A DNA stretch of 64,000 nt from Armatimonadota bacterium (GTDB lineage: Bacteria > Sysuimicrobiota > Sysuimicrobiia > Sysuimicrobiales > Sysuimicrobiaceae), in contig JAVKGX010000001.1 of NCBI GenBank assembly GCA_031432545.1, forward strand, positions 454,411 to 518,410. The letters run 5' to 3'. Positions within the stretch are counted from its first letter, which is position 1. Every line of letters starts with the position of its first letter. The notes below the pieces were generated by a model. The model searched no databases. It was not told the origin of the DNA and saw only the letters and a list, made by a program, of their open reading frames with translations. The position numbers and the translations under genes were made by a program. Positions 60,142-64,000 of the stretch are shown here, piece by piece.

Positions 60142-60219
60142 GGGGGCGTGGTGTAGCCCGGTCAACACACCTGCCTGTCACGCAGGAGATCGCGGGTTCA
60201 AATCCCGTCGCTCCCGCCA
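60142..60219 (+). tRNA. trnD-GUC: tRNA-Asp (anticodon GTC)
   Basis: The acceptor GGGGGCG pairs with CGCTCCC (one G-T pair), followed by a G discriminator and an encoded CCA (60217-60219). The anticodon arm CTGCC-TGTCACG-style loop carries GTC. The T-arm is CGGGTTCAAATCCCG. This is a complete 78-base gene. Confidence 0.96.
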
Positions 60220-60237
60220 TACAAGGCGGCGCTCGTT

Positions 60238-60313
60238 GCCTGGGTAGCTCAGGTGGTAGAGCAGGGGACTGAAAATCCCCGTGTCGGCGGTTCGACTCCG
60301 TCCCCAGGCACCA
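60238..60313 (+). tRNA. trnF-GAA: tRNA-Phe (anticodon GAA)
   Basis: The acceptor GCCTGGG pairs with CCCAGGC (60303-60309), then an A discriminator and encoded CCA (60311-60313). The anticodon arm GGGGA / TCCCC encloses CTGAAAA with anticodon GAA. The D-arm has AGCTCAGGTGGTAGAGC. It is 18 bases downstream of tRNA-Asp, so both share one promoter. Confidence 0.97.
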
Positions 60314-60335: not shown

Positions 60336-61733
60336 TCACGAGGACGCCTGCAGCAGGTGGACGCCGTCCCAGCGGGAGGGGCGGAGCGCGGTGTTCCACA
60401 GCCGCTGCTTGACCTCGGCGGCCGGCAGGCCGGCGCTCAGCCACAGTGCGGCCACACCGGCCACCAGGGGCGCGGCGAACGACGTGCCGGACCACCGCAC
60501 GTAGCGCGACCCGAACAGAATTCTCCCGCAGTCCAGGACCAGATCCTCGCCGGGCGCGGCGACGTGGGATTCGTTGCTGAACCACGCGTACCGGTCGGCA
60601 GCGGCTGAGGAGGCCGCACCCACCGGGATCACCTGCGTGCTGGCGGCCAGCGTGTCACCGAAGTAGCCGTACGCGGCGGGTTCGAGGCAGTTCTCCGGCC
60701 GCCCCTCGGAGAGGTTGCCGGCGGCGCAGACGAGTACGGTGCCCTGGCGCGCGAGCCCGTCGGCGGCGGCGAGCAGGACGCACGACTGGACGGTCTCCGG
60801 CTGCGAGCGGTCCAAGCCCAGGCTGAGGTTGTAGACGAGCGGGCCCGCGACGAGCGGGCGTCCCGTCCGCGGGTTCGTGACCCCCGTACGTCGCAGCCCA
60901 TCCACCCAGCGCATCGCCTCGATCAGCTCGTACGTGAGCGCCCCCAAGGCGCCGTTGAGGACACGGACGAGGATGATGTGGGCGCCCGGTGCCACCTGCC
61001 GTACCAGGCTCGCGATCATGGGCCCGTGGTGTGCGCGGTAGGCGGCCATCTGTCGATCGTCCGCAGCCAGCGCAGACGCGGTGACCAACCGACGCCGCAG
61101 GACCATCCCGCATTCCGGTTCCTCATCGGGTACGTGCACCGGCTCGAGCAGAGGAAACCCCTCTGGGATGCGCGGCCACTCCGCCCACACGTCGATCAGC
61201 GCAGGATCCACCGGCGGTGTCCCGTCTTCTAGGTCCGGCGCGCTGTCGAAGATTGCCACCGTGACGCCCTCTCCGCGCGGGTGGTGTCGGCGCCGCGCGG
61301 TCAGCCCGATGCGCTCGAAGGCTGCCTGGCGCAGGTAGTCTTCGTCTGCGGCCGCCTCCAGGCGGACTGCGCGATCCGGCGTCGGCCCTCCGTGCAGTCC
61401 TTCCCGGAAGTCCTGGCCTCTGACCTCGTAGTCGAGCGCGTAGGCCAGGCTGTCCGCCCGACCGCGCAGGGTGCGCAGGAAGTGTCGCGCGGACGGCCTG
61501 CCCTCGACCACGAAGCGCCGAGCCGCCATCCTTTCCGCGCCGGGCCGCGGCGCGGGCACGCTGATGCGGTCCCAACCGAACGCCGAACCGTGGCGATAGG
61601 AGACGAAGACCTCCCGGGGCGGCGAGGGCACCGGCGCGCAGCGGATGCGGTGTCGCCGTTCGAGCGCATCGAGGACTTCAACCGGACCGCACAGCAACAC
61701 GTGGCCCACCAGACAGTTCTGGGTGGCGTTCAT
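60336..61733 (-). CDS. Subtilisin-like (S8) serine protease with unknown N-terminal domain
   Basis: This is a 465-residue protein. The S8 triad is intact: Asp163 in VAIFDSAPDLEDG, His236 in AHHGPMIASLV, and Ser418 in SGTSFAAPLVAGVAALW. The oxyanion Asn340 is in CAAGNLSEG. There is no signal peptide, so it should act in the cytoplasm. The first ~155 residues (NCLVGHVLLCGPVEVLDAL..., FVSYRHGSAFGWDRI) form a separate domain I do not recognise, possibly a pro-domain or recognition module. ATG 61733 overlaps the stop of the upstream CHAT gene (ATGA), so the two are translationally coupled. A role as partner or substrate of the CHAT protease is inferred. Confidence 0.88.
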   Translation of the reverse strand: MNATQNCLVGHVLLCGPVEVLDALERRHRIRCAPVPSPPREVFVSYRHGSAFGWDRISVPAPRPGAERMAARRFVVEGRPSARHFLRTLRGRADSLAYALDYEVRGQDFREGLHGGPTPDRAVRLEAAADEDYLRQAAFERIGLTARRRHHPRGEGVTVAIFDSAPDLEDGTPPVDPALIDVWAEWPRIPEGFPLLEPVHVPDEEPECGMVLRRRLVTASALAADDRQMAAYRAHHGPMIASLVRQVAPGAHIILVRVLNGALGALTYELIEAMRWVDGLRRTGVTNPRTGRPLVAGPLVYNLSLGLDRSQPETVQSCVLLAAADGLARQGTVLVCAAGNLSEGRPENCLEPAAYGYFGDTLAASTQVIPVGAASSAAADRYAWFSNESHVAAPGEDLVLDCGRILFGSRYVRWSGTSFAAPLVAGVAALWLSAGLPAAEVKQRLWNTALRPSRWDGVHLLQASS

Positions 61734-64000
61734 CGCTCGGCCTCCGGACTTCGGGCTGAGCGGAAGGGCCGTACGTCCGGATCTCCCACGTAGACGAACG
61801 GCGCCCAGTGCAATGGGTGTGCGTAGCCCTCGTCCCGCACCGACAGCGCCGCACCCCGCAACGCCGCCGGCACGGCTTCGCCGGCACGCAGCAGCCGGTA
61901 GAAACTGCGCATCAGCCGCCGCGCGCTCGCGTCGGCCACCGGCCACAGGGAGAGCACGAGCGAACGGGCACCGGCGTGGAACCACGCCCGTGCGAACCCC
62001 ATCAGCTCGTCGCCCGGCAGCACGCGGTGGGCGCCGGTCTCGCAGCCGCTGCAGACGACGAGTGAGGCCGGCGTGCGCGCGTCCAGCAAATCGGCCGCGC
62101 TGACCGGCCCGTCCGTCAGGTGGATGGCCGACAGCAGCGGCACGTCGCGGTCAAACCGGCAGTGCGCCGCCACGTGCACCACCCCCGCGCCGGCGAGCGC
62201 CGCCAGGAACCGATCTCGACCGGGGGACACGAGGACCTCCGCTCCCACGAGGGCCCCGATCTCCTCGGCCTCCGACTGGGCCTCCGGCAGCCTTCCACCG
62301 AGCGTGTCGGCGACGGCCACGGCACGGGCGGGGGTGTGCCGGCGCCGGCTGTGCAACAGTGACAGCACGGCACCGGAAGGCACGTAGCAGACCTGGTGCG
62401 AACTCCACACCGGTTCGCCGCCGACTGTCAGCGCATGGAACGGGACGCCGTGCAGCGCTCCGTGGGGCGCCACGATCAGGCGGGGGCGCTGGGCGATCGC
62501 GTCGCGCAGAGGTTCGAGGAGGGCGGCGCCGAGGTGTTCGAGCGCGCGGTTGGCCGCGCGCTCTGCCTGCCCGGGGACCGACCTCCCGGCGGCGTAGGCC
62601 CGCATCCCCAGGGCCAGGAGCCCGACTCGGGTGTGGATCCGGTCGAGCGAGGCCACCTCTCGGAAGACACACAGGCCGTCGGAGGTCAGTACGAACGCGA
62701 CGACCTCGTCGCCGACGCAGAACCACTCGACGAGCGCGGTGTCCGGGTCGAGGGCGGGCCGCTGGGGCTTCCAGCGGGCGCCCAGCAGCGACGCCTCTTC
62801 TGCGTAGGCGGCGTTGTGCGCCTGCAGCTGCCAGATCCGGTCCTGGAGGACAGCGGCGACGTGCGCCGGGGCATCGTCGGGGCCGTCCGGATGGAACTCC
62901 GACCGGTGGACCGTGCGGCGATGTGCGTCCAGCAGGCGGTTGATCTCCTCCACCAGGGGTTCGTCGGCCGCAGACCGAGCCGACAGCTGCACAGCCGCCG
63001 CCCCGGCTACGATCTCCGCCATGCCGCGGCCCTTCGCGCGCTGGACAGCCTCCCACGCCCGGGCGGTCTCCTTCGCCTCGCACAACGCGGCCACCGCGCC
63101 CTCGAAGAGGGCGCGGGTTTCGGAGAAGTAACCGGACCGCAGATCCGCGGGAATCGCGTCCAGGTTCCTGTCTGCCGCGCGAACCCCGCACAACAGGTGG
63201 CACAGACGACGCCGGCCCGTGCTGAGGTCGGCCATCCGGCGGTGGGCGGCGGCGGCCAGCCAGTCCAAACCCAGCCGCCGCGCCACCCGCCAACCGCGGC
63301 GCGCCGCACGCATGGCCCGATCGGGCACCCCGGCCATCCGGTGCAGATCCGAGGCGATCAGCCAGGCGCGTCCTCCGTCGACGGTGTCCTCCGTCGCTGC
63401 CAGCGCACCCTGTGCCTGAACCAGCAGCCGCTCGGCGACGGTGGGCTGACCGGACCGGACGTGGACCGACACGAGCGCAAGTCGCGCCCGGATCGCCCAG
63501 TCGCGCCGCCCGGACTCCTCGAACCTCTCCAGCGCTTCCTGCAGGCACTCTCTCGCGCAAGCCAGGTCGCCGGCCTGCCGGTGTGCCAGCCCCAACAGGT
63601 AGGTGAGGACGCCGGACTCCGCAGCCGACAGGTGCGGGCCGGCGCGCTCGAGGATCCGTGGCGCTTCGAACTGGACGCGCCGCGCGTGCCCCAGGTACAG
63701 CCAGCACTCCACAGAACACGTCCTGAACACGGCGCCCTCGCCCATCAGACCGGCGCGCTCGAACAGGTCTGCGGCGCGGTCGAAGTGGTGCAGCGCCCGC
63801 GTGTACCGGCCGGTGCGTAGGTAGGCGTGGCCCGCGGCTCCTTCCGCCCGAGCGGCCACCAGCGGTCGGCCGGCGCGCAACGCTGCGTCGCGCGCACCCT
63901 CCAGTACGGCGACGGCCTCGCGGTGGCGCCCGACCGTCGCCAGCAGAAAGCCCTGGTTGGTGAGGACCGTCGCCAGGTCGGCAACACCCGCCTCGCCGAT
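61730..64000 (-). CDS. TPR-CHAT caspase-like protease, N-terminus outside window
   Basis: The open frame runs from the window edge with no start, giving 756 residues of the C-terminal part. Residues 1-300 are TPR-like helical repeats (for example LTNQGFLLATVGRHREAV, GHAYLRTGRYTRALHHFDRAADLFERAGL). A helical middle section follows. The C-terminal ~280 residues form a CHAT domain (caspase HetF-associated with TPRs). APHGALHGVPFHAL, HVAAH with catalytic His613, and CSGCETGAH with catalytic Cys653 (partial numbering) are present. The domain ends APFVYVGDPD. This is the family of Csx29/TPR-CHAT and HetF-like proteases. Its ATGA overlap with the S8 protease gene argues for one functional unit. The upstream part of the operon is out of view. 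Confidence 0.9.
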   Translation of the reverse strand: MGEAGVADLATVLTNQGFLLATVGRHREAVAVLEGARDAALRAGRPLVAARAEGAAGHAYLRTGRYTRALHHFDRAADLFERAGLMGEGAVFRTCSVECWLYLGHARRVQFEAPRILERAGPHLSAAESGVLTYLLGLAHRQAGDLACARECLQEALERFEESGRRDWAIRARLALVSVHVRSGQPTVAERLLVQAQGALAATEDTVDGGRAWLIASDLHRMAGVPDRAMRAARRGWRVARRLGLDWLAAAAHRRMADLSTGRRRLCHLLCGVRAADRNLDAIPADLRSGYFSETRALFEGAVAALCEAKETARAWEAVQRAKGRGMAEIVAGAAAVQLSARSAADEPLVEEINRLLDAHRRTVHRSEFHPDGPDDAPAHVAAVLQDRIWQLQAHNAAYAEEASLLGARWKPQRPALDPDTALVEWFCVGDEVVAFVLTSDGLCVFREVASLDRIHTRVGLLALGMRAYAAGRSVPGQAERAANRALEHLGAALLEPLRDAIAQRPRLIVAPHGALHGVPFHALTVGGEPVWSSHQVCYVPSGAVLSLLHSRRRHTPARAVAVADTLGGRLPEAQSEAEEIGALVGAEVLVSPGRDRFLAALAGAGVVHVAAHCRFDRDVPLLSAIHLTDGPVSAADLLDARTPASLVVCSGCETGAHRVLPGDELMGFARAWFHAGARSLVLSLWPVADASARRLMRSFYRLLRAGEAVPAALRGAALSVRDEGYAHPLHWAPFVYVGDPDVRPFRSARSPEAER

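Follow-up and report, generated by a model that had tools for sequence, protein, structure and literature searches.

Near one end of a 64,000-nucleotide stretch of DNA, referred to here as the window (G000:C1:454411-518410, inside a 2.19 Mb genome), the gene for a TPR-CHAT cysteine protease overlaps the gene for an S8 subtilase. TPR-CHAT proteases are known mainly through the CRISPR-linked Csx29 and the related eukaryotic separase, and the arrangement raises the question of whether the two proteases act as one system and, if so, what such a system would do. In the literature searched, which left out most subscription papers, we found no description of a TPR-CHAT/S8 pair. The features of the locus are:

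60142..60313, plus strand: tRNA-Asp and tRNA-Phe, the boundary downstream of the CHAT-S8 pair
60336..61733, minus strand: S8 subtilase gene, 465 codons, start ATG at 61733
60383..61250, minus strand: S8 catalytic domain (Pfam, alignment)
about 60480-60482, minus strand: S8 Ser418, catalytic
about 60714-60716, minus strand: S8 Asn340, oxyanion Asn
about 61026-61028, minus strand: S8 His236, catalytic
about 61245-61247, minus strand: S8 Asp163, catalytic
61431..61706, minus strand: S8 N-terminal domain, residues 10-101, predicted beta-alpha-beta-beta-beta-alpha-beta
61730..61733, minus strand: ATGA overlap of the S8 start ATG and the CHAT stop TGA
61730..64000 in the window, minus strand: TPR-CHAT gene, with 558 nt more past the window end
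61781..62548, minus strand: CHAT domain, residues 671-926 (Pfam, 1.9e-50)
about 62042-62044, minus strand: CHAT Cys839, catalytic
about 62162-62164, minus strand: CHAT His799, catalytic
63029..64000, minus strand, first part past the window: helical TPR superhelix, residues about 31-510 (Pfam and model)

The ATGA overlap proposed in the original prediction is present, with the S8 start codon placed at the CHAT stop. The same ATG overlap occurs at locus L034 (g2 genome), and the ATGA is kept in some CHAT-S8 pairs but not in all. A GTG at 61985, the mechanical start of the S8 open reading frame, falls within the CHAT gene and is not used. The locus was extended upstream with sequence fetched from beyond the window, and the TPR-CHAT gene was found to begin with a GTG at the equivalent of position 64558, giving a full length of 942 codons. 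The next gene upstream is a divergent transketolase, and the operon therefore consists only of CHAT and S8. Downstream of the pair lie the two tRNA genes and a nicotinate phosphoribosyltransferase-like gene (this name and that of the transketolase come from reading of the sequence). No hydrophobic N-terminal segment resembling a signal peptide was seen in S8 or in CHAT, and the earlier statement to that effect, made for the parts then shown, now extends to the true CHAT N-terminus. Both proteins of the window look cytosolic from their sequences.

The larger protein is a CHAT peptidase (PF12770) with TPR repeats: its CHAT match lies above the cut-off, the catalytic His and Cys are present, and a TPR_12 match (3.2e-10) marks the repeat region. 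Residues His799 and Cys839 are invariant among 12 aligned sequences from two phyla, and the catalytic pair is kept in 38/38 paired sequences. TPR and CHAT were the only domains detected by Pfam; neither the SAVED sensor domain that marks SAVED-CHAT systems nor a DNA-binding domain was found. The structure model is good (mean pLDDT 82), and its best PDB matches in Foldseek are separase, Csx29 and the DdvA anti-sigma factor. Separase gives the best of these (E about 4e-13) and likewise places a caspase-like protease after a helical superstructure; however, it is eukaryotic and lacks a subtilisin partner, and the similarity is at the level of fold only. Csx29 of the type III-E CRISPR Craspase combines TPR and CHAT with a His/Cys pair and belongs to the same fold family (E about 1e-11), although the window protein scores 28.6 bits against the NCBIfam Csx29 model, far below the cut-off of 300, and is not a Csx29 by that measure. 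The third match, between the helical-repeat-rich CHAT protein and the DdvA transmembrane anti-sigma factor (PDB 8rw5, 8rot; E 1.7e-11), points to a sigma-regulation setting, but DdvA itself is a membrane anti-sigma factor.

The smaller protein belongs to peptidase family S8, with a Pfam Peptidase_S8 match above the cut-off (1.5e-22) and the Asp, His, Ser and oxyanion Asn of that family. Asp163, His236, Asn340 and Ser418 are invariant in 12 aligned S8 sequences from two phyla, which together with the conserved CHAT dyad upholds the earlier reading that both catalytic sites look intact. In front of the catalytic domain lies an N-domain that is propeptide-like by its position and by a predicted alpha/beta, ferredoxin-like fold. 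The S8 model is weak (mean pLDDT 47.5 overall) and, as most of it is too poor, only the N-domain, where local values are mostly 55-86, can be used. Foldseek searches with this model gave nothing significant, the best hits being ribosomal proteins (E 0.0036), and despite the alpha/beta prediction no Pfam, I9 or fervidolysin prodomain profile matched the N-domain of the window S8. The general layout, an Asp/His/Ser catalytic domain after an alpha/beta N-domain (predicted in the window S8), is shared with S8 subtilases that carry a fervidolysin-type prodomain (PF22148). The window S8 departs from these in several ways: it lacks a signal peptide, its Asp and His motifs are separated by an insertion, and D-S-A-P stands where they have D-T-G.

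Whether the pairing is more than a local accident was addressed by its recurrence. In 7/7 genomes of the window's family, CHAT and S8 are adjacent and stand beside the same transketolase gene, and the intact copies share 55-58% identity with the window S8 and 43-46% with the window CHAT. Downstream genes vary between genera, and no third gene downstream of S8 is conserved family-wide. An apparent frameshift in the S8 of G001 (L032 9541-10948) and another in the CHAT of G005 (L036 9949-9953) represent either decay or draft-assembly errors. None of the remaining 36 genomes of the phylum, which is probably Candidatus Sysuimicrobiota (CSP1-3), has the pair or its S8 subfamily; one of them gives a CHAT match at 4e-92, and the weaker matches span the TPR part only.

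Relatives were also found outside the phylum. A contig scan with a single protein returned no loci, while the same scan with an alignment returned seven, with bacterium HR32 and Armatimonadota MAGs among the named relatives; three of the seven are Chloroflexota S8 loci at 36-39% identity, each directly downstream of a TPR-CHAT gene. Whole-genome searches added three more Chloroflexota loci. Thirteen members of the S8 subfamily were thus found (7 in the window's family and 6 in Chloroflexota), and all 13 directly follow a TPR-CHAT gene. The pairing occurs in many genomes and no subfamily member without a CHAT neighbour was found; neither outcome that would have told against the original reading was seen. 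A domain-wide sample of 386 genomes yielded no subfamily member outside the window's family, a weak negative with three candidates scored per genome. Strong TPR-CHAT homologues are present in 67/158 genomes of one Chloroflexota class. Among the best 25 relatives outside the window's subfamily, all Chloroflexota, an S8 gene adjoins CHAT in 22 of the 24 that could be assessed, and in a further set at E 1e-162 to 1e-120 in 5/9, in contrast to 0/11 for more distant CHATs (E 1e-112 to 1e-65). Therefore S8 adjacency belongs to one CHAT clade and not to CHATs generally. At locus L113 (3407-6617, plus strand) one TPR-CHAT gene is followed by two tandem S8 open reading frames.

The two proteins have also been inherited together. 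Maximum-likelihood trees of CHAT and S8 (38 pairs) share their main clades and are largely congruent, and the corresponding distance matrices (36 pairs) are correlated with a Mantel r of 0.81, a value reached by 0/5000 permutations and, when permutation was restricted to within groups, by 3/5000. With no species-tree control, part of this signal reflects shared vertical descent, which is still co-inheritance. The S8 lacks a signal peptide in two clades, the window's among them, whereas in a third it has a signal peptide together with a prodomain of the fervidolysin type (PF22148), and the CHAT of that clade looks cytosolic. A profile comparison of the N-domains of cytosolic and exported S8 proteins detected homology only for the linker into the catalytic domain. 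Together, these sequence comparisons indicate that CHAT and S8 form a two-protease module of ancient origin, inherited as a unit, whose S8 is cytosolic in some branches and exported in another. Because the two proteins are inherited together across two bacterial groups and their active sites are intact, they probably form one regulated system. The two-protease module that was originally put forward as a candidate is, as a functional unit, well supported: the pair recurs, the two trees diverge in parallel, and both active sites are intact.

The account of this system that we favour, with a probability somewhat short of even, is that a signal-gated TPR-CHAT protein activates S8 in the cytosolic branch, with a sigma arm in some Chloroflexota and a fixed, stress-type regulator in the window's family. 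The TPR superhelix would hold the CHAT cysteine protease off until a cellular signal or partner binds. In the cytosolic branch, active CHAT would then make a limited cut, most likely in or beside the N-domain of the co-made S8 zymogen, and this cut would free a broad subtilisin activity. Where Chloroflexota copies stand with ECF-sigma-like and anti-sigma-like genes, CHAT or the pair would probably also inactivate the anti-sigma factor and so switch on a set of genes; where such genes are missing from the locus, as in the window's family, the pair alone may serve as a fixed, vertically inherited stress-type regulator. In favour of this account, the nearest fold neighbours of CHAT, separase and Csx29, are both regulated endopeptidases. 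Similarly, the zymogen step is consistent with the predicted propeptide-like N-domain and with the exported relatives, which carry their fervidolysin-type prodomain in that position. A cascade from CHAT to S8 is plausible and direct contact in the window's branch possible. In a large sister branch, however, S8 is exported and CHAT is cytosolic, and direct activation of S8 by CHAT is therefore not a general rule; it is this exported branch that chiefly speaks against direct CHAT-S8 cleavage as a general mechanism. The favoured account is further weakened by the poor S8 model, by the lack of a propeptide profile match for the N-domain, by an ATGA overlap that not every pair shares, and by the usual self-cleavage of subtilisins.

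The main rival to CHAT acting upstream of S8 is cleavage of an anti-sigma factor. CHAT would cut the anti-sigma first and S8 would complete its degradation, freeing an ECF sigma factor, and in the window's family the sigma and anti-sigma genes would sit at some other site in the genome. Four Chloroflexota loci (L050, L051, L052 and L069) have the order ECF-sigma-like, zf-HC2 anti-sigma-like, TPR-CHAT, S8, and a fifth (L065) has zf-HC2-like, CHAT, S8; the zf-HC2 match exceeds its cut-off in L050 and L051, while the evidence for a sigma factor is weak to moderate (L051 matches TIGR02937 at 2.6e-7, under the cut-off). Additionally, distant TPR-CHAT genes without S8 (L114-L122) often have sigma- or zf-like open reading frames directly upstream. 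Csx29 itself cleaves Csx30, the inhibitor of the ECF-like sigma factor CASP-sigma (PMC10028731). Against this reading, the window pair has neither a sigma nor an anti-sigma gene as its neighbour and none was seen at the family loci, searches for such genes elsewhere in three family genomes (the window's included) gave only weak generic zf-HC2 matches, and an exported S8 could not reach a cytosolic anti-sigma factor. On this evidence sequential anti-sigma proteolysis is unlikely without being negligible. Some of the upstream frames at L114-L122 are about 500 residues long, suggesting fusions. The remaining Chloroflexota locus, L064 (585-5341, plus strand, G351), has CHAT-S8 alone, just after parA/parB-like and replication-initiator-like open reading frames on a 2.45 Mb contig that is possibly a second replicon.

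A division of labour with no direct cleavage, in which CHAT with its TPR region senses a signal and sets the expression or timing of an S8 that carries out its own cytosolic or extracellular proteolysis, is in our view decidedly unlikely. It would accommodate the exported S8 branch, which has co-diversified equally well with a cytosolic CHAT. Furthermore, most subtilisins mature by self-cleavage, and S8 may therefore need no activator. The absence of a detectable DNA-binding domain from CHAT speaks against a purely regulatory role, as does the unbroken retention of its active site in the paired sequences, which suggests that cutting matters.

A role in anti-phage defence or cell death, in which infection would trip CHAT and release S8, with death or arrest of the cell as the outcome, is improbable. 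CHAT proteases do act in type III-E CRISPR, and predicted conflict systems include peptidase effectors, with two-peptidase systems that have trypsin, caspase or S8 members (PMC7159879; PMC10907252). However, the pair occupies a fixed, syntenic housekeeping site beside transketolase in all seven family genomes. The recognised neighbours are all housekeeping genes, with neither Cas7-11 nor known defence families recognised among them, and no CRISPR-like direct repeat family of at least 24 nt was found near the pair. PADLOC returned for the window pair only a generic subtilase match and a marginal BovA match (E 0.0034), and for the relatives weak IetS and PDC-S23 matches. A plasmid tblastn search and a scan of viral contigs found no relative of the pair. 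Thus the defence role that had been suggested is not supported, and on the earlier question of whether the pair recurs and lies near defence genes, it recurs, but no defence neighbours were found. That the two are ordinary proteases sharing an operon by chance, with no joint function, is very improbable given the recurrence, which makes the pairing more than chance, together with the clade-specific adjacency and the congruent trees.

The window pair is unlike Csx29 in having no recognised Cas genes or CRISPR-like repeats nearby and in having a second, serine protease as its partner. Like the Csx29/Csx30/CASP-sigma system, the related Chloroflexota loci couple a TPR-CHAT gene with an ECF-sigma-like and an inhibitor-like gene, and this layout echoes that of type III-E, a resemblance and not proof of descent. 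More tentatively still, the pair may represent an undescribed, ancient signalling module: a TPR-CHAT protein akin to separase and Csx29 would gate a dedicated subtilisin, in cytosolic and exported versions, with wiring to ECF sigma and anti-sigma genes in some lineages. Such a module would be a candidate relative of the setting that gave rise to the CRISPR-linked Csx29 pathway. A CHAT-subtilisin pair across Chloroflexota and a second phylum would add a partnership between caspase-like and subtilisin proteases to bacterial signalling. It would also offer a CRISPR-free setting for studying how TPR-CHAT proteins are triggered, and for asking whether type III-E has non-CRISPR relatives that share its sigma/inhibitor/TPR-CHAT logic.

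Two further features of the S8 proteins were observed. Exported Chloroflexota members beside CHAT, at L084, L087, L088, L091, L094, L096 and L099, have long stretches of aspartate within the catalytic domain, which may bind calcium. At L065 (5781-7319, minus strand), the linker behind the S8 N-domain carries tandem NEGNPAP repeats.
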